From NCBI GenBank assembly GCA_026394075.1, contig JAPKYX010000301.1, positions 1-41,303 of the forward strand: 41,303 bases of DNA, in the 5' to 3' direction. The notes beneath the pieces were generated by a model. It was given only the letters and a program-made list of their open reading frames with translations, ran no database searches and was not told the DNA's origin. The first letter of the stretch is position 1. Every line of letters begins with the position of its first letter. Source of the DNA: Acidobacteriota bacterium (GTDB lineage: Bacteria; Acidobacteriota; Terriglobia; Bryobacterales; Bryobacteraceae). Shown here one piece after another: positions 29,720-38,271 of the stretch. The translations under genes were made by a program, and so were the position numbers.

Positions 29720-29796
29720 GCAGGGACATTGGATGGCTAGGTTAGGCGCAGCAAGAACTCAGGCACTTCTGCTAAGGTCTGGTGTCTAAGGAAATC

Positions 29797-31107
29797 ATGC
29801 GCCGGATTCGTTTCTTTGACCGAGAGAACGATAACGAGTCACTTCCACTGGATTGGCGGTGGGTTGCCGCCATCTTGGCGACGCTGTTCCTGAACTTTCA
29901 TCTTTTCACCGGACTTGGGTCACATGCCATGGATGCGGCGGGGTGCTTCGCCGTGGCCATCCTAATGCCTCTGCTCTTCTTTGCCGGGCCCGCCGTCCTC
30001 GTCCACACGACACAACGATCCATTCTGAGGCTGCTGGAAGACTCGATCGGAACGATGCCAACGGTGGCGGTTCGATTGTGCGCTGTGGTCTTTCTGTCCC
30101 TCTGGATCGCAGGCTTACTTGCCTGGCCTGTCTTTTGGGCGGCGAAAATGTCGATGCCTGAACCATCCCTGCGGTCAACGGCCGTTGGTGCGATTGCGTT
30201 GATGTTTCTGTTCCATACCGCGATGCAGAGCACTCACACAACCGCGAAGCTGGCTCTGTTTACAAATAAGCTCGGAATTGTCATTCTCGTCGCCGCCTTG
30301 ATTCGTGCCAGAGATGGTTGGGATGCGATTCCCGCGAATGTCGAGATCACGAGTATCTTTACGCCTCTGCAGCCACTCTCGTGGGCCATGTCCAACCTTG
30401 CTCAGTATGCCGCCCCATTCGGACTTCTCACTGCCCAATATGCCTCCCGAATGCCAAGCCGAAGGACGGTTGCGCTGACGATTCTGACGGGCGTGACTTT
30501 GCCGGTCTTTGGGGTGATGCTTCTCTCTGGTTTTGTGGCAGTGGCGACAAGGAATTCTGACCTGTATCAGCCCAGCCTTAGCCCAAACGTCGGCATGGCC
30601 CTGTTTGCTCACACAGCCGCGAGCGCCGCTTGGTCGCGCGGGCTGCTGGTCGCAATCTCAGCCTTCGGCGCTCTGAGACTCGGGGTCTGGGCGCTCGCCA
30701 AGTGGAGTTCCTTGCCTTCCCAGGGAAAACTACGATGGGCCTGCGAGATAGTTGGTGCTGTGGCTATCGCGGTACTGGCTCTCTGGCCATTCGCGGAGCC
30801 AGTAGTCGCCTTACACGGCATAGCAGCAAAATGCCTCACGCTCGTAGGTGCAGTGGTGACGGCTGATTGCGTGATGAGAAACGCGTGCGGCCCTGCCCCA
30901 CGAAGGTTCGACCCAGTCGGCACAATTGCCCTCGTGGCTGGACTTGGTATAGCTCTCTGGCTAGCTGAGGAGATCCAGCGGTCGCAGGCTCAATGGTGGC
31001 TGCACTGGCTTTTCCCCTCTTATGCGGTTAGCTTCGGGGCTACTTGTATTGGACGATTGGTGCAGAGACGAGCTAGCTCTCAAATGAACAGCGGATGTCT
31101 CAGCTGA
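29797..31107 (+). CDS. Polytopic membrane protein of unknown function
   Basis: A 436-residue protein dominated by about eleven to twelve hydrophobic helices. ATG at 29797 is preceded by AAGGA with short spacing; a GTG at 29782 would add five residues. The segment A-Q-Y-A-A-P-F-G-L-L-T-A-Q-Y-A-S-R-M and the helix length pattern resemble nucleobase/amino-acid permeases of the APC or NCS1 fold, but I cannot assign a family with confidence. The G+C and codon use look slightly lower than in neighbours (more A- and T-ending codons), which fits later acquisition. The gene follows the DUF433/DUF5615 pair with 77 bases between them, not obviously in the same operon. Confidence 0.82.
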   Translation: MRRIRFFDRENDNESLPLDWRWVAAILATLFLNFHLFTGLGSHAMDAAGCFAVAILMPLLFFAGPAVLVHTTQRSILRLLEDSIGTMPTVAVRLCAVVFLSLWIAGLLAWPVFWAAKMSMPEPSLRSTAVGAIALMFLFHTAMQSTHTTAKLALFTNKLGIVILVAALIRARDGWDAIPANVEITSIFTPLQPLSWAMSNLAQYAAPFGLLTAQYASRMPSRRTVALTILTGVTLPVFGVMLLSGFVAVATRNSDLYQPSLSPNVGMALFAHTAASAAWSRGLLVAISAFGALRLGVWALAKWSSLPSQGKLRWACEIVGAVAIAVLALWPFAEPVVALHGIAAKCLTLVGAVVTADCVMRNACGPAPRRFDPVGTIALVAGLGIALWLAEEIQRSQAQWWLHWLFPSYAVSFGATCIGRLVQRRASSQMNSGCLS

Positions 31108-31252: not shown

Positions 31253-31789
31253 TTACTTGGCTGAGGGGGGCGGCTGTCGTTCGGGAGTAGTGCGAATCAG
31301 GCGATCGGCGGCGGTCTGAATCAGTGCATGGTCGGTGCTAACGAGCGTGACGCAGTCCTGCCCATCTGCGATGAACGTCGTTGCTTGCAGCTCCTGCATC
31401 TGGTTCCAAAATCTCTCTAGGATGCCTGGTAGGTACGGGTTCGGCTCATGCAGCAGGAATGCCGGGTCGTTGACGAACACCATCACGTGGCCTGGCCCGG
31501 GCTGAAAGTCGAAGTAGTTTCCGTGATAGATGCTACCCAATGCGGGAGGAGGTTCCGTGAAGATATACCACTCGTCGTATCCTGGCGAGTCTAGCCCATC
31601 GCGCTGGAATCTCAGCCCTGCAACCGTGCTGATCCTAGGACTGTACGCGATATCGCCGCGCAGAACCCAGCCTTCCGCAATCTCTTCGTCGGATAACCGG
31701 GAGAATGCCACTGTCGTGGGACGTGACCGCAAGGTAATGATTGACGATAGCCTCGGGAAGGAGTCCGACAACATCGCCCATGTAAGCAT
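31253..31789 (-). CDS. Hypothetical protein, no recognised domain
   Basis: A 178-residue frame with mixed but coding-like composition and no signal peptide or membrane helix. The middle is rich in aromatic residues (D-E-W-Y-I-F-T-E-P-P near 74-83, then Y-H-G-N-Y-F-D-F near 88-95) and F-W-N-Q-M-Q-E-L precedes A-D-G-Q-D-C-V-T-L-V-S-T-D. I do not recognise the family. Third-position G+C is higher in this frame than in an overlapping alternative frame (31635-31871), which is why it is preferred. The first 15-20 residues are uncertain, and a frameshift joining the two frames cannot be excluded. Neighbours suggest accessory DNA. Domain style recalls small immunity-type proteins, but that is a guess. 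Confidence 0.55.
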   Translation of the reverse strand: MLTWAMLSDSFPRLSSIITLRSRPTTVAFSRLSDEEIAEGWVLRGDIAYSPRISTVAGLRFQRDGLDSPGYDEWYIFTEPPPALGSIYHGNYFDFQPGPGHVMVFVNDPAFLLHEPNPYLPGILERFWNQMQELQATTFIADGQDCVTLVSTDHALIQTAADRLIRTTPERQPPPSAK

Positions 31790-32253: not shown

Positions 32254-34710
32254 CTAGCGGTCGTCGTCCTCTACCTCCACCGACAGCGGGGCAAAAACCG
32301 CTTGCCGGACGCCGGGGTAGGGGGTGGTTTTGTGCATCCGCCACAGGATCCGGTTTAGCGCATTGGTGGGCGCGGCGTCGGGGACGTCCCAGCGCATTTT
32401 GGCGGAGGCTTGCGCGTCTTGCCGGGCTTGGCCGCGGAGGGCGCTGGACTGCGGGTTGCGGTCGAATAGGGATTGCGTGGGCTCGACGGCGGTGTAGGGT
32501 GCGAAATCCGGGGTGCTGGTGAAGCTGGCGCGCATGTCGAGGGCGATCAGGTCAAACAATGACAGTGCGGGCATGCCGAGCATCAGTTCGATGGTTTTTA
32601 GCATGCTCTGGTGGGCGTAGAAGGTGGAATCGACGCTGCCGCGCTTGATGTAGGGGCTGATGGCCAGGGCGACGGTGCGGTGGCCGTCCACGTGGTCGAC
32701 ACCATTCTGCGCGTCGTCTTCCACGATGAAGATCGCCATCTTCTTCCAGAAGGGCGTGTGGGAGAGCGCTTCCACCACTTTGCCTACGGCCAGATCGTTA
32801 TCGGCCACCATCGCCTTGGGCGTGGAGGCACCGGGGGAGGCGCCGTAGGTGTGGTTGCTGGGCAACTGGAGCAGGGTGAGGTTGGGCATCTTGCCGTCCT
32901 TCACCCACGCCTTGACGTCTTCGTTAAAGATGTCGGCGCGGATCACGTCCGGGATGCCGTTTGAGTAGCTGGGGAAGTTTTTCGCCAGCAGCTTGTTCAC
33001 CGGAGCAATGGGGGCGGTCACCTGCCAGCGGTTCAGGAACTTTTCGCCGTTTTTCCATGCGGCCAGTAGTTCGTGCCGCAGGGCGGGCGGCTCGGCCAAG
33101 CGTCCGGCGTATTCGCCATAGATCTTCACGGTGCGGCCCACCTTCAGGGCCGCGTCCCACAGGAAGCCGCCGTCGGAATAGGCGATCGGGTCCGTCCCAT
33201 CGAACGGGTAGCTGCGGCCGGCGTATCCGGGCCAGAGCGTGTAGGCCATCTCATTGGCTTGCGTCACCCATTGGTGGCCGTTGGCGCTGTTGCCGCCGGT
33301 GGCATAGAAGTTGTCGAGCAGCACGAACTGCTCGGCCAGCCGGTGCTGGTTGGGCGTGACCTCGCGGCCAAACATGGTTAAGCTGGGGTCGCCATTGCCT
33401 TTGGGGATGTCGCCGAGCACCTGGTCGTAGGTGCGGTTCTCTTTGATGATGAAGACGACGTGCTCAATCAGGCTGGGCTCACCGGCACGTTCCGGCACGG
33501 GGGTGGCGGCGATGGCGCGGCGCGGCGGATCGGCCTTCAAGGGCAGGCGGTTGTTTTCGGCGACCACCGTTGTGTAGCTGGCCAGTTGCGCGGCATCGGG
33601 GATCGGCACCACGCTGACGGAGCCGCGGTTCGAATGCACGAAGCGCTTGCGCGGCTCCTCCCGCCAGCCGGACCCCGGGCCCAGCAGGGAGGCGATGGCC
33701 AGATGCTGGCCGTCCGCACTGACGGAGAGCGCGTTGGGGTACCAGCCAGTGGGGATGGTGCCCAGGATGCGCGAGGTGGCGATGTCCAGCACGGCCACGG
33801 CGTTGATGCCGCCGCAAGCGATATAGAGCTGCGTGCCGCGCAAGGCCAGTGCCGTGGGTGCGATGCCGCGCACGGGGCGGGGGAAGGGCTGCACGGGGAT
33901 GGTCTGGAGCACCTTCTGCGTGGCGCTGTCGATCACCGAGACGCTGTCGGAGTTGCCGTTGGCCACATAGACCCGACCGCGTTTTTCATCCCAGACAATG
34001 GCCATCGGGTGCAGGCCGACGGCGATGGTGTCGGTGACCGTCATGGTCGCGAGATCGACGCGGGCCACGGTGCCGCTGGCGGCGATGCCACGGCTATCGA
34101 CCACCACTTGGTCGGCGGTGGGTTCCAGACCCGTGGGCGCGGTGAGGTCGCCCGCCTTGGAGAAGCGTCCGCCCCAGTTGGTCACATAGGCCACCGTGCC
34201 CGCCGCATTCAGGGCCACGCCGAAGGGGGCGATGCCCGTCTTCACTTTCTTGATGCCCGCACTGGTGACCACTGCGAGCTCGTTGTTGAAGGTCAACGGC
34301 ACGGCGGTGACGCCCTTGCTGGTGGCCAGCGCGCCGGAGATCATCGTGCCCAGCTTTTGTTCGCCCAACAGCACCTCGCGCTTCCGGGTTACGGTGTAGA
34401 CCGGCTGCTGTCCATCGAAGGTCAGGCCTTGCAGCGCGGGTGAGCCGGTGTGGGCGCGCTTTTCGACGACGCGGTTCTCGCGCCAGTTCATGCGGTAGAG
34501 CTGCGAGGCGTGCAGCACCCAGAGGTCGTCGCTGGACGCTCCAAAGGTGACGCCGTAGACGCGTCCGTCGAACACGGAGGGCACTCCGGCCGGGGTAATG
34601 ATCTGGCGGGTGGTGATCACGCCGGGGTCGGTGACAGCGCGGACGGGACGGTCCACGGTTTGGGCCAGCAGCAACACGAGAGGCAGCATGGCGACACTGT
34701 AGCAGGTCAT
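32254..34710 (-). CDS. Bifunctional YncE-type propeller / alkaline-phosphatase-superfamily phosphoesterase
   Basis: An 818-residue exported fusion. A hydrophobic N-terminus (L-P-L-V-L-L-L-A-Q) precedes a beta-propeller of YVTN/YncE type (about 25-400), recognisable by repeated V-x-D-x-A-T-x-x-x-x-x-I-P-x-G and V-Y-V-A-N-G-N-S-D-S-V-S-V-I-D. The C-terminal phosphoesterase domain starts near residue 411 with E-H-V-V-F-I-I-K-E-N-R-T-Y-D-Q, the metal/nucleophile region of the acid/alkaline phosphatase superfamily, and contains F-I-V-E-D-D-A-Q-N-G-V-D-H-V-D-G-H-R (about 665-685). The fusion is common in Acidobacteria; the substrate is unknown. Two starts are possible, 34710 (with AAGGG upstream) and 34689. 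It is divergent from the deoxyhypusine-synthase-like gene. Confidence 0.9.
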   Translation of the reverse strand: MTCYSVAMLPLVLLLAQTVDRPVRAVTDPGVITTRQIITPAGVPSVFDGRVYGVTFGASSDDLWVLHASQLYRMNWRENRVVEKRAHTGSPALQGLTFDGQQPVYTVTRKREVLLGEQKLGTMISGALATSKGVTAVPLTFNNELAVVTSAGIKKVKTGIAPFGVALNAAGTVAYVTNWGGRFSKAGDLTAPTGLEPTADQVVVDSRGIAASGTVARVDLATMTVTDTIAVGLHPMAIVWDEKRGRVYVANGNSDSVSVIDSATQKVLQTIPVQPFPRPVRGIAPTALALRGTQLYIACGGINAVAVLDIATSRILGTIPTGWYPNALSVSADGQHLAIASLLGPGSGWREEPRKRFVHSNRGSVSVVPIPDAAQLASYTTVVAENNRLPLKADPPRRAIAATPVPERAGEPSLIEHVVFIIKENRTYDQVLGDIPKGNGDPSLTMFGREVTPNQHRLAEQFVLLDNFYATGGNSANGHQWVTQANEMAYTLWPGYAGRSYPFDGTDPIAYSDGGFLWDAALKVGRTVKIYGEYAGRLAEPPALRHELLAAWKNGEKFLNRWQVTAPIAPVNKLLAKNFPSYSNGIPDVIRADIFNEDVKAWVKDGKMPNLTLLQLPSNHTYGASPGASTPKAMVADNDLAVGKVVEALSHTPFWKKMAIFIVEDDAQNGVDHVDGHRTVALAISPYIKRGSVDSTFYAHQSMLKTIELMLGMPALSLFDLIALDMRASFTSTPDFAPYTAVEPTQSLFDRNPQSSALRGQARQDAQASAKMRWDVPDAAPTNALNRILWRMHKTTPYPGVRQAVFAPLSVEVEDDDR

Positions 34711-34782: not shown

Positions 34783-36018
34783 GTGAGCAACCATCAGCAA
34801 CCCACGCGCCGGACCGTCCGCGTCCGCCGCGTGGATGAATGCAACACCCTGGACGAACTCTTCCGGCACTGTCTGCCGGCCTTTGGCGGCGCTTACCTGC
34901 GCCGCATCTACGACATTCTGGACCGGGCCGTCGGCGCGGGCTGTCCCATCACCATGGCCGTCGCGGGACCGGTTACGGTCTCCGGTCAACATCAGACGTG
35001 GCTGCTGCCACTGCTCGAAACCGGGTGGGTGGCCTATCTTTCGACGACGGACGCCGTTTGCTATCACGACGGCCACCGTTCGCTGACCGGGCGGCGTGAT
35101 CCGGTCTTTGAGGTGCCGATCTTTGGCGATGACGGCGCGCTGCGCGATGAGCACACGATCCGCGTCACCGACATGGCCTTCGATGAAGACGTGCTGCTCG
35201 ACCAGGACCGCTACCTGAGCGCTCTGCTGTTGACCGACGAGTTCCAGCACAAGATGACCGGCACCGAGCTGAGAAACCGCCTCGGGCGGCACTACGGCGA
35301 AATGGAACAGCGCAACGGGGTGGAACCGGGGTTGCTGTCGACTTGCCATCGCCTGTCGATCCCCGTGTTTGTCGGCGCGCCCGCCGATGGCAGCGTGTTT
35401 TTGAACTCGATGAAGTTGTGGGCGATGCGCGAGGCGGGCCTGACTGGGGCGTATGGCTTTGATCTCGACCTGCATGCCGAAGTATTTGAGGCGTGCGCGT
35501 ATCACCGCTGGGGCTTGTTTGAAAGCCCGGCGAAGGCGCTGGCCACCTGGATGCTGGGCGGTGGCGTGCCGAAAAACTACAACCTGCAGCCGGAGCCCGC
35601 GCTGGGGCAGATTCTGGGCCTGCCGGATGTGCGCGGCTATGAGTTTGATGTGCAGATCGTCACTGCGCCGGTCACCGATGGATCGCTTTCATCGTGCCCG
35701 CCAGCGGAGGCGGTCACCTGGGGCAAGGTGGACAAGGACACCTACCAGCAGTCCACGGAGAGCATGCAGGCGGACTATTCCATGCTGATGCCGTTCATCG
35801 TGAAGGCGCTGCTGGACAACCGTGCCCTGTACCAGCAACTGGCGTCTGAGATCGGCGAGGAAGCACTGTTTGCCCAGCATCCGAAGGCGCAAGGCTATCT
35901 GCGCACGCAAGCCGGCTATCGCTTGTTTGAGCAACGTGAAACACTGTGCGGGAAGCTGCGCGAAGATGTTCGGGCCAACGCCGAATGGCTGAAGGAAAGC
36001 GTCCTGTATCCGCTCTAA
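34783..36018 (+). CDS. Deoxyhypusine-synthase-like protein
   Basis: A 411-residue member of the deoxyhypusine synthase (DHS) family. It has G-P-V-T-V-S-G in the nucleotide region, G-G-G-V-P-K-N-Y near residue 264, D-V-Q-I-V-T and D-G-S near 287-300, and E-A-V-T-W-G-K with Lys315, which matches the catalytic lysine of DHS (W-G-K). In eukaryotes and archaea DHS moves the aminobutyl group of spermidine onto eIF5A/aIF5A. Bacteria have no eIF5A substrate; bacterial relatives include homospermidine-synthase-type and agmatine/polyamine enzymes. It starts at GTG with no obvious ribosome-binding site, and 30 bases separate it from tdh. A link to threonine degradation is not explained by known pathways. 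Confidence 0.88.
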   Translation: MSNHQQPTRRTVRVRRVDECNTLDELFRHCLPAFGGAYLRRIYDILDRAVGAGCPITMAVAGPVTVSGQHQTWLLPLLETGWVAYLSTTDAVCYHDGHRSLTGRRDPVFEVPIFGDDGALRDEHTIRVTDMAFDEDVLLDQDRYLSALLLTDEFQHKMTGTELRNRLGRHYGEMEQRNGVEPGLLSTCHRLSIPVFVGAPADGSVFLNSMKLWAMREAGLTGAYGFDLDLHAEVFEACAYHRWGLFESPAKALATWMLGGGVPKNYNLQPEPALGQILGLPDVRGYEFDVQIVTAPVTDGSLSSCPPAEAVTWGKVDKDTYQQSTESMQADYSMLMPFIVKALLDNRALYQQLASEIGEEALFAQHPKAQGYLRTQAGYRLFEQRETLCGKLREDVRANAEWLKESVLYPL

Positions 36019-36048
36019 GAGTGTTGGTGTCAGTAAGGAGGCCGGTGG

Positions 36049-37080
36049 ATGAAAGCTTTGGTGAAGAGCCGGGCCGAAAAAGGCATCTGGCTGGATGACG
36101 TTCCAGTGCCGGAATACGGCATCAACGACGTGCTGATCAAGGTAAAGAAGACCGGGATCTGCGGCACTGACTTGCACATCTACGATTGGGATGAATGGGC
36201 GCAAGCCACCATCCCCGTGCCCATGCACATTGGCCACGAGTTTGTGGGCGAGATCGTCGCCGTGGGGGCCAACGTCAACGACTTTCACCCCGGCGAGATC
36301 GTCAGCGGCGAAGGCCATGTGGTCTGCGGGCGGTGCCGCAACTGTTTGGCCGGGCGGCGGCATCTGTGTGTCCACACCAAGGGCGTGGGCGTCAACCGTC
36401 CCGGAGCGTTCGCGGAGTACCTGGCACTGCCGATGGCCAACGTCTGGCGGCATGCGCCGGGGATTGATCTCGATACGGCCTCGATCTTTGATCCGTTTGG
36501 CAATGCCGTGCACACGGCGCTCTCGTTCCCGGTGCTGGGTGAAGACGTGCTGGTGACCGGCGCGGGTCCGATTGGGCTGATGGCCGCAGCCGTGGCGCGG
36601 CACGCGGGCGCTCGGCATGTGGTGATCACTGATGTGAATCCGTTCCGGCTGGAACTGGCCCGCAAGCTGGGCGTCACTTTGGCCGTCAACGCACGCGAGA
36701 CGCGGCTGGCGGATGTGCAGAAGCAGTTGGGCATGCGCGAGGGCTTCGACGTAGGTCTGGAGATGTCCGGCAACCCGGCCGCCTTCGCCGAGATGATCGA
36801 CAACATGGAGCATGGCGGCCACATTGCAATGCTCGGCATTCCGCCGAAGGACATGCGGATCGATTGGACCAAGGTGGTCTTCAATATGCTGACCATCAAG
36901 GGCATCTACGGGCGCGAGATGTATGAGACCTGGTACAAGATGACGGTGATGCTGGAGTCGGGGCTCGACATTGCGCCGGTGATCACGCACCGGTTCGCCT
37001 GGCATGAGTTCCAGCAAGGGTTCGATGCGATGAAGAGCGGCGCCTGCGGCAAGGTGGTGCTGGATTGGAGCGACGTTTAG
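36049..37080 (+). CDS. tdh: L-threonine 3-dehydrogenase
   Basis: A 343-residue zinc-dependent dehydrogenase that oxidises L-threonine to 2-amino-3-oxobutanoate with NAD+. Catalytic-zinc residues are Cys38 in G-I-C-G-T-D-L-H and His63-Glu64 in G-H-E-F. The structural-zinc cysteines are 93, 96, 99 and 107 (C-G-R-C-R-N-C, then C). The NAD fold has G-A-G-P-I-G-L near 172-178, and the C-terminal segment F-D-A-M-K-S-G-x-x-G-K matches Tdh rather than other medium-chain dehydrogenases. AAGGAGG at 36035-36041 is a strong ribosome-binding site. The product goes to Kbl, encoded three bases downstream, so the two form a working pair in the cytosol. Confidence 0.95.
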
Positions 37081-37083
37081 GCC

Positions 37084-38271
37084 ATGTACACCGCTGAAGC
37101 GAGGCTGCAAGAGACGCTGTTCGGCATTCGGGCCGAAGGGCTCTACAAGAGCGAGCGTGTCATGTCGAGCGCGCAGGGCACGGAAGTGACCGTGGGCGGC
37201 GGCCAGCCGTTGATCAACCTGTGCGCCAATAACTATGTGGGCCTGGCCAACCATCCGGCTATCGTCCAGGCCGCGCATGACGCGCTGGACAAGTGGGGTT
37301 ACGGCCTGGCTTCGGTGCGCTTCATCTGCGGCACGCAGGAGCTGCACAAGCAACTGGAGCGCCGGATCAGCGAGTTTCTGGGGACGGAAGATACGATCCT
37401 CTACGGCTCCTGCTTTGATGCCAACGGCGGCTTGTTTGAGACGCTGCTCGATGCCGAGGATGCGGTGGTGTCTGATGAACTGAACCACGCCAGCATCATT
37501 GACGGCATCCGGTTGTGCAAAGCGAAGCGGTTCCGGTATCGCAATGGGGACATGGCAGATCTGGAAGCGAAGCTCACTGAGGCGCAGGGGTCGCGGCAGA
37601 TTCTGATCGCGACTGATGGCGTCTTCTCGATGGATGGCTATATCGCCAAGCTGCCGGAGATCTGCGAGCTGGCCGCTCGGTTCGGCGCGATGGTGATGGT
37701 GGACGATTCGCACGCGGTGGGCTTTATCGGAGCCCAGGGCCGGGGCACACCGGAACACTGCGGCGTGATGGACAAGGTGGACATCATCACCGGAACGCTG
37801 GGCAAGGCCTTGGGCGGAGCCAGTGGCGGCTACACCAGTGGCCGCAAGGCGGTGATCGACCTGCTGCGGCAACGCTCGCGGCCCTATCTGTTCTCGAATT
37901 CCGTGCCGCCGCCGATCGCGGGGGCGTCGTTGAAGGTGCTGGAACTGCTCTCGGCGGGCGGCGAGCTACGGGAGCGGGTTCACGCGAACGCCGCGCTCTT
38001 CCGGTCTCTGATGACGGCCCACGGGTTCGACCTGCTGCCCGGTGAACATCCCATCATCCCGGTGATGCTGCATGACGCGACGGTGGCCACACGCATGGCG
38101 GAGAAGTTGCTGGCGCGCGGTGTCTACGTGATCGCGTTTTCGTATCCGGTGGTGCCCAAGGGCCGCGCTCGCATCCGGGTGCAGGTGTCGGCGGCGCACA
38201 CTACGGCCGAGTTGGAATACGCCGCAGCTCAGTTCACGTCGGCTCGCGACGAGATGCAGGCCGCGGGCTAG
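37084..38271 (+). CDS. kbl: Glycine C-acetyltransferase (2-amino-3-ketobutyrate CoA ligase)
   Basis: A 395-residue PLP enzyme of the alpha-oxoamine synthase family, which cleaves 2-amino-3-oxobutanoate with CoA to glycine and acetyl-CoA. The PLP lysine is Lys241 in [15 protein letters not shown], close to the E. coli position. Other landmarks are N-N-Y-V-G-L-A near residue 48, F-D-A-N-G-G near 115, [11 protein letters not shown] near 138 and D-D-S-H-A-V-G-F near 208. It follows tdh by three bases and so completes threonine-to-glycine conversion. The ATG follows the tdh stop directly. The end overlaps the convergent lnt gene by four bases. Confidence 0.95.

Follow-up and report, generated by a model that had tools for sequence, protein, structure and literature searches.

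The DHS-superfamily gene of the window, the 41,303-nucleotide stretch of Acidobacteriota DNA analyzed here, probably encodes an NAD-dependent homospermidine synthase that works in the manner of SpeY, a bacterial DHS homologue described as making homospermidine (PMC9992855, PMC10407285). The gene (34783..36018, + strand) has a GTG start and specifies a protein of 411 residues, a predicted homospermidine synthase, from a SpeY-sister lineage termed clade A. The analysis establishes its family, its fold as a prediction, its catalytic residues, its clade, likely pathway genes in the same genome, and its non-overlap with other DHS types; from these we infer the chemistry, substrate, and product of the enzyme. 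In the proposed reaction, NAD would oxidize an amine donor (putrescine itself, or spermidine on its aminobutyl side), K315 would hold the aminobutyl group as an imine, and a second putrescine would accept this group, with reduction yielding homospermidine. The putrescine may be supplied from arginine by the successive action of arginine decarboxylase, agmatine deiminase, and N-carbamoylputrescine amidase.

An earlier note on this DNA had held that a bacterial DHS-type enzyme must use a substrate other than eIF5A. That is most likely so, and was already known from SpeY and from the caldomycin synthase CdmS, a bacterial DHS homologue described as coupling agmatine (PMC9992855, PMC10407285, PMC10981699). 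Bacterial DHS homologues with substrates other than eIF5A are thus already published, and the window protein would be a further, SpeY-sister variant among them. No such clade appears in the titles and abstract openings among the literature matches listed, a set that most subscription papers fall outside.

Family scores, fold, and active-site residues

The match of the window protein to the Pfam family PF01916 (DS; E = 1.4e-32, 113.6 bits, gathering cut-off 27) makes it a member of the DHS superfamily. Seven NCBIfam DHS-type models match the protein, each below its own cut-off; the best is the SpeY model, NF001980/PRK00770 (171.1 bits, cut-off 450), and the CdmS model, NF002699, gives 74.3 bits (cut-off 500). 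The AlphaFold2 model of the protein (pLDDT 92.4) adopts the DHS fold. Among the 50 matches listed, all PDB matches to the model are DHS, and the Foldseek comparison with 1roz_B gives 3.6e-13 and a TM of 0.82 by target length.

The catalytic lysine is K315, located within W313-G314-K315, and is kept in 33/33 clade-A rows, as are D238, K287, E323, W327, K329, and D342 in human DHS numbering; D313 in the same numbering is kept in 32 of the 33. These seven human-numbered positions and the fold are shared with the eukaryotic and archaeal deoxyhypusine synthases (1dhs, 7cmc, and 8put). Unlike those enzymes, the window protein carries H288N (N265), D243L (L207), N292Q, Y305Q, E136Y, and E137H, although D243 is itself Thr in the archaeal reference 8put. 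The substitutions H288N, N292Q, Y305Q, and D316L are found in clade A and SpeY but also in CdmS-type rows and in a third DHS type, group C, and so argue against DHS proper, not specifically for SpeY. In the residue table, which was built without L069 and places L133, L151, L152, and L155 in no group, most residues initially scored as SpeY-like are common to all bacterial clades, which lowers the weight on a SpeY-like reading and raises that on a new specificity.

The likeness to SpeY comprises the superfamily, the catalytic Lys, Trp, and Glu, and a Tyr136-His137 pair that clade A shares with 48/48 SpeY rows and with 19/19 rows of its sister clade A′, whereas CdmS-type rows have Val-Gln (24/24); the sister-clade position and co-occurrence with candidate genes for putrescine supply add to it. 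The differences are also considerable. The window protein is 26–33% identical to ten SpeY rows, and position D313 is Asp in clade A, DHS, and CdmS-type rows and Thr in SpeY. Clade A is further set apart from SpeY by N106P (clade A alone), G318S (also in A′), and A319C (also in A′ and group C), as well as by a longer C-terminal tail, with a median of 69 residues past residue 345 compared to 44 in SpeY and 45 in A′.

Phylogenetic placement and distribution

In a 52-row tree, clade A (11 rows) has support of 100/100 and joins A′ (12 rows) in a single clade (100/99), whose sister is SpeY (14 rows, 98/98), with DHS, the CdmS-type, and group C outside all three. The 52 rows are a subset, picked for balance and without 8put and most long rows, of a 148-row set from which the near-copies L031, L032, and L116, the fragments L050, L051, and L070, and L132 (two pieces) were omitted; the 148-row tree has the same branching order. 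Judged by record titles, clade A consists mostly of Acidobacteriota of the Bryobacteraceae type, and A′ is a clade of Myxococcota and Planctomycetota. A tree membership check places the window protein outside the SpeY clade, and the stem to its clade is long (1.5 changes per column); the tree program flags long branches meeting at the join of A + A′ and SpeY. The earlier note had allowed that phylogeny might put the protein in a characterized bacterial group with an unrelated role. It does not; the neighboring characterized group is SpeY, whose role is polyamine synthesis.

Since the protein scores under the SpeY cut-off, lies outside the SpeY clade, and sits on a long stem, its specificity may have shifted. 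Clades A and A′ would then share superfamily chemistry with another donor or acceptor, such as spermidine as an obligate donor, diaminopropane, or a mixed agmatine–putrescine product. This alternative, which draws on the separate clade, the non-SpeY residues N106P, G318S, and A319C, the retained D313, and the longer clade-A tail, is judged unlikely in view of Tyr136-His137, the sister position to SpeY, and the distribution of the DHS types among the 37 genomes of the bacterial family. Clade A is present in 21 of these genomes, SpeY in 8, and group C in 4; the three types never occur together, which suggests an equivalent role. Clade A seems to replace true SpeY or group C within the family, as if these were interchangeable. 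It is doubtful that clades A and A′ make up a functional class of their own, a third among bacterial DHS homologues, which pairs substrates differently from both SpeY (putrescine) and CdmS (agmatine) and has supplanted SpeY in polyamine metabolism within a single bacterial family. The family genomes G007, G010, G016, and G018 have no DHS match of any type. G010 (96% complete) does contain ADC, AIH, and NCPAH matches, which weighs against the homospermidine reading, and inspection of the listed ORFs of its ADC/AIH/NCPAH region revealed no evident substitute for DHS.

Polyamine genes in the source genome and its relatives

Homospermidine synthesis in the SpeY manner would call for putrescine, and candidate genes for its supply are present in the source genome: SpeA (arginine decarboxylase; 888.7 bits, cut-off 369) and an overlapping NCPAH-AIH-like gene pair, assigned by best match, yet with both members below the NCBIfam cut-offs. 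The single ureohydrolase-family match is an arginase, over its NCBIfam cut-off. Searches for triamine-route genes covered SpeD and nspC. SpeD matches are absent from 3/3 genus genomes; of the 21 family genomes with clade A, however, 11 have one, and spermidine synthesis is possible there. The carboxyspermidine route was rejected, with nspC matches over cut-off in 0/61 genomes; the nspC match of the source genome (24.7 bits) falls at the second of its PF02784 loci (C155), in a gene taken to be diaminopimelate decarboxylase.

Unlike SpeY, clade A has no conserved polyamine gene cluster. The SpeY genes of the family adjoin an Orn/Arg-decarboxylase-family or agmatine-deiminase-family gene at 7/8 loci, and a polyamine gene lies near the clade-A gene in 1/21 family genomes (G028, with arginine decarboxylase ∼5 kb away on the opposite strand). 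An operon with polyamine genes was found only weakly, in G028 and, within A′, at L135, where arginine decarboxylase is directly upstream, and at L148, where it is 1.3 kb away on the other strand. All 15 A′ genomes have at least one of an agmatine-deiminase-family gene (6 genomes) and a ureohydrolase-family gene (12 genomes). Six of these 12 ureohydrolases were typed, one per genome: for four the best match is agmatinase, although none reaches the agmatinase cut-off, and those of G455 and G458 are arginases over cut-off. In G458, no agmatine-to-putrescine gene was found, there being no match to the agmatine-deiminase or ureohydrolase families beyond the arginase. The Planctomycetota clade-A genomes G469 and G470 have weak agmatine-deiminase matches, G471 has none, and G472 (Taylorbacteria) has neither an agmatine-deiminase-family nor a ureohydrolase-family match.

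A CdmS-like activity using agmatine, which the source genome makes (SpeA), is improbable. CdmS-type genes over cut-off do occur in the same phylum (3/3 tested, 539–594 bits), and the window protein shares with CdmS the superfamily, the catalytic lysine, D313, and Leu at 316. The protein nevertheless reaches just 74 of the 500 bits of NF002699, belongs to a separate clade, and has Tyr-His in place of Val-Gln at 136/137. In addition, position N106, taken to correspond to Ser67 of CdmS, is Pro in 33/33 clade-A rows and Ser in 24/24 CdmS-type rows, and Ser67 is proposed to bind the guanidine (PMC10981699). The gene content of the source genome, with arginase as the sole ureohydrolase-family match and with agmatine-deiminase- and NCPAH-like genes, also speaks against agmatine use. 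If homospermidine is indeed the product, it would be the same as that of the Blastochloris viridis-type HSS, which belongs to another enzyme family and has carboxyspermidine dehydrogenase as a relative (PMC9992855).

The tdh–kbl neighborhood and the meaning of clade A

As the earlier note had reported, a DHS-family gene that keeps the W-G-K lysine is located 30 bases 5′ of tdh, which is followed by kbl; the coordinates are exact, the profiles match, and the juxtaposition is confirmed as real and well past chance. The tdh gene (36049..37080, + strand) encodes an L-threonine 3-dehydrogenase of 343 residues (NF003808, 591.7 bits, cut-off 380), and kbl (37084..38271, + strand), 3 bases further on, encodes a glycine C-acetyltransferase of 395 residues (NF005394, 645.3 bits, cut-off 460). 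The spacer before tdh contains a Shine-Dalgarno-like sequence, AAGGAGG (36035..36041, + strand), 7 bases 5′ of the tdh ATG. The DHS-like gene and tdh–kbl are possibly in one transcript. The divergent upstream neighbor (32254..34710, − strand), which encodes an 818-residue beta-propeller and phosphoesterase-family protein (PF04185, 1.4e-17), is retained in both other genomes of the genus (L031, L032). A check for plasmid origin gave three weak plasmid matches (23–26% identity), and one for phage origin gave zero phage matches.

The earlier note further proposed that the enzyme is tied to amino-acid catabolism. Short spacers and the same gene order in 3/3 genus genomes are in keeping with coupling to threonine breakdown, but the order is observed in 0/18 other family genomes with an orthologue (one of which, G008, offers just 66 bases downstream) and in 0/16 further named clade-A loci, some of which may duplicate genomes already counted. 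A kbl relative of >60% identity is found in four clade-A genomes outside the genus (G011, G015, G025, and G034), on a different contig of these draft assemblies, and the one paper found to pair homospermidine with threonine dehydrogenase concerns another subject, judged by title and abstract opening. A conserved operon with tdh–kbl is thereby rejected for the loci examined, and functional coupling is very unlikely. The adjacency is a genus-level arrangement that says little about the role of the enzyme. Other recurring clade-A neighbors each occur in small subsets only, in a survey limited to clear cases, as its custom ORF caller misassigned the DHS ORF at some loci (e.g. L032 and L116).

EF-P is the bacterial homologue of eIF5A, onto a lysine of which true DHS transfers an aminobutyl group. 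A corresponding modification of EF-P, despite that precedent and the retained catalytic lysine, is the least credible alternative, considering the replacement of human DHS H288 and D243 and the absence of a tip Lys from the two EF-P-type proteins that a search with the EFP_N family alone recovered in the genome, which by-eye alignment gives Asn (PGNL) and Arg (ARGG) at the position of Lys34 in the EF-P PGKG motif (PMC2821294).

Because the window protein falls under the cut-offs of all seven matching NCBIfam models, clade-A genes may well carry the annotation "deoxyhypusine synthase", and a hypusine function would not be expected of them. The three DHS types found in one bacterial family provide a natural replacement set for finding the residues that determine polyamine specificity. 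For the organisms themselves, which are represented here largely by metagenome assemblies, placement beside SpeY predicts that homospermidine is present.

Phylogenetic placement of the DHS-like protein

The top NCBIfam model for the 411-residue product of the deoxyhypusine synthase (DHS)-like ORF, referred to here as the window protein, is NF001980/PRK00770, "homospermidine biosynthesis protein", at 171 bits (below the cut-off of 450), and six further DHS-type NCBIfam models score lower, each below its own cut-off. A quick tree of 148 rows and a careful tree with 52 give the same order of clades. In both, the window protein belongs to clade A, made up of Bryobacteraceae-type Acidobacteriota and three Planctomycetota MAGs, with a Taylorbacteria MAG at its base in the 148-row tree. 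Clade A', composed of Myxococcota and Planctomycetota, is its relative. A + A' (100/99 in the careful tree) is sister to the DHS-like homospermidine synthase SpeY (98/98). Outside lie DHS proper, the caldomycin synthase (CdmS) type, and group C, a third DHS type of the family that is near PRK00805. Nostoc is joined in the SpeY clade by other cyanobacteria, and all seven SpeY genes from the family of the source genome that were placed in the 148-row tree fall there too. The tree program warns, for the careful tree as well, that several of these joins link long branches; the clade order is unchanged after most of the longest rows are dropped.

The SpeY cut-off is passed (532–595 bits, NCBIfam) by a Nostoc gene, two SpeY genes of the family, and one gene of a different family in the class, and the CdmS cut-off by three CdmS-type genes (539–594 bits, NCBIfam). 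SpeY is also the best model, below its cut-off, for a Planctomycetota clade-A gene (185 bits), the Taylorbacteria gene (193 bits), and three A' genes (272–317 bits).

Three Planctomycetota MAG contigs (L127, L128, and L130) carry DHS genes nested within the Acidobacteriota of clade A, with 59–66% identity to the window protein, reflecting either gene transfer or mis-binned contigs. Of three public MAG contigs with A'-type DHS genes (L135, L141, and L149), two bear the title Klebsiella pneumoniae and one Bifidobacterium breve; these genes cluster with one Myxococcota row, and the titles look mis-assigned. To go by its title, Brochier et al. (2004) dealt with the horizontal acquisition of DHS homologues by bacteria; Burnat et al. 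(2018) also belongs to the prior literature.

Active site and proposed reaction

Residues were compared in human DHS numbering across 33 clade-A, 19 A', 48 SpeY, 24 CdmS-type, and 15 group C rows. D238, K287, E323, W327, K329 (K315 in the window protein), and D342 are conserved in 33/33 clade-A rows, and D313 in 32/33. Relative to the DHS references, which are themselves not wholly uniform at N292 and Y305 (8put has Trp at 292), the replacements H288N, N292Q, and Y305Q are invariant or nearly so in each of the five groups; being common to the bacterial groups, they argue against DHS proper and not for SpeY specifically. The Leu at D316 in all bacterial groups is not diagnostic because both archaeal references also have it. 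Tyr136-His137 of clade A are as in SpeY (48/48) and A' (19/19), unlike the Val-Gln of CdmS-type rows (24/24) and the Phe-His of group C (15/15). Clade A and A' both have Leu in place of D243, while SpeY has Met in 45/48 rows and the CdmS type has Phe. At position 313, clade A has Asp, as do DHS and CdmS-type rows, whereas SpeY has Thr; this Asp counts against a plain SpeY reading of clade A. The AlphaFold2 model of the window protein has a pLDDT of 92.4, and DHS structures make up the whole list of its 50 PDB matches (top 1roz_B, E 3.6e-13, 22% identity); residues 299–302, aligned with human 313–316, are of low confidence in this single-chain model.

By analogy with the established chemistry of DHS and SpeY, we infer that in the window protein a donor amine would be oxidized by NAD, an aminobutyl group would be carried on K315 as an imine, and putrescine would accept this group. 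Homospermidine is the probable product, and another specificity is rather unlikely. Agmatine coupling, as in CdmS, is doubtful. In the CdmS report, Phe204 and Leu286 are set against human D243 and D316, and Ser67 and Glu293 are the proposed guanidine binders (PMC10981699). We read Ser67 as human position 106, which is occupied by Ser in CdmS-type rows, Pro in clade A, and Ala in SpeY.

Gene order around tdh and kbl

The DHS-like ORF (34783–36018, + strand; PF01916, 1.4e-32) is followed on the same strand by tdh (36049–37080) and kbl (37084–38271), both above their NCBIfam equivalog cut-offs, in the positions given in the earlier note; the spacers measure 30 and 3 bases. The window is an entire contig of a 5.77-Mb, 302-contig assembly. 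Two of its other ORFs (29782–31107 and 31253–31789) have no Pfam or NCBIfam match, and the longer looks like a hydrophobic, membrane-type protein.

An orthologue of the window protein is present in 21/37 family genomes, source genome included (72–100% identity). The DHS-tdh-kbl order is found in 3/3 genus genomes and in 0/18 of the remaining orthologue-bearing family genomes, 17 of which have at least 2.2 kb of downstream sequence and one (G008) 66 bases. It is also found on a public contig titled Acidobacteria bacterium, Lac Pavin (L116; DHS protein 96% identical), probably the same record as a contig of genome G002, and is absent from the other 16 named public clade-A loci (L117–L132), some of which may duplicate family genomes already counted. 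In G011, G015, G025, and G034, kbl relatives (>60% identity) lie on a different contig from the DHS gene. On this evidence the adjacency is a local arrangement. Of the first reading, the DHS-family gene beside tdh-kbl is confirmed. Its surprising part, a link of a polyamine reaction to amino-acid catabolism through tdh-kbl, fails, and genuine coupling to threonine breakdown is very improbable.

DHS types and polyamine genes

Among the 37 family genomes, 21 have the clade A type, eight SpeY, four group C, and four none, and two types never co-occur. The search took the window protein as query (E ≤0.001) and could have overlooked a second copy that had diverged even further. Zero overlap under independent placement of the three sets has a probability of 3.5e-7, a value that ignores genome kinship and is indicative only.

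The source genome encodes a biosynthetic arginine decarboxylase (888.7 bits) and an arginase, both above cut-off, and an overlapping gene pair best matched by N-carbamoylputrescine amidase (NCPAH; 308.9 bits against a cut-off of 410) and agmatine deiminase (248.2 bits against 483). The strict aguB cut-off is uninformative here because 0/61 genomes pass it. SpeD (PF02675) has no match in 3/3 genus genomes. Of the 61 relatives, 22 have one, including 11 of the 21 family genomes with clade A. According to PMC10407285, a SpeD homologue may instead decarboxylate arginine or ornithine.

An Orn/Arg-family decarboxylase or agmatine-deiminase-family gene adjoins 7/8 SpeY loci of the family. In G060, a genome outside the family, one cluster (L069, 5760–9608) brings together a DHS homologue with agmatine deiminase, NCPAH, and an arginine decarboxylase that is probably pyruvoyl-type by our reading of its sequence; this DHS homologue is very divergent (end branch 4.7 in the 148-row tree) and fits every clade poorly. 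The family member G010 (L200; two contigs, estimated 96% complete) has matches for ADC, AIH, and NCPAH, but the window protein has no DHS-family match in it.

Modification of EF-P by the window protein is the least credible reading, as the two EF-P-type proteins found in the source genome (L197 and L198) have Asn and Arg, not the tip Lys (compare PMC2821294). SpeY (PMC9992855, PMC10407285) and CdmS (PMC10981699) have already been published (see also PMC11107197 and PMC11999265), and the window protein is a divergent member of this known superfamily.
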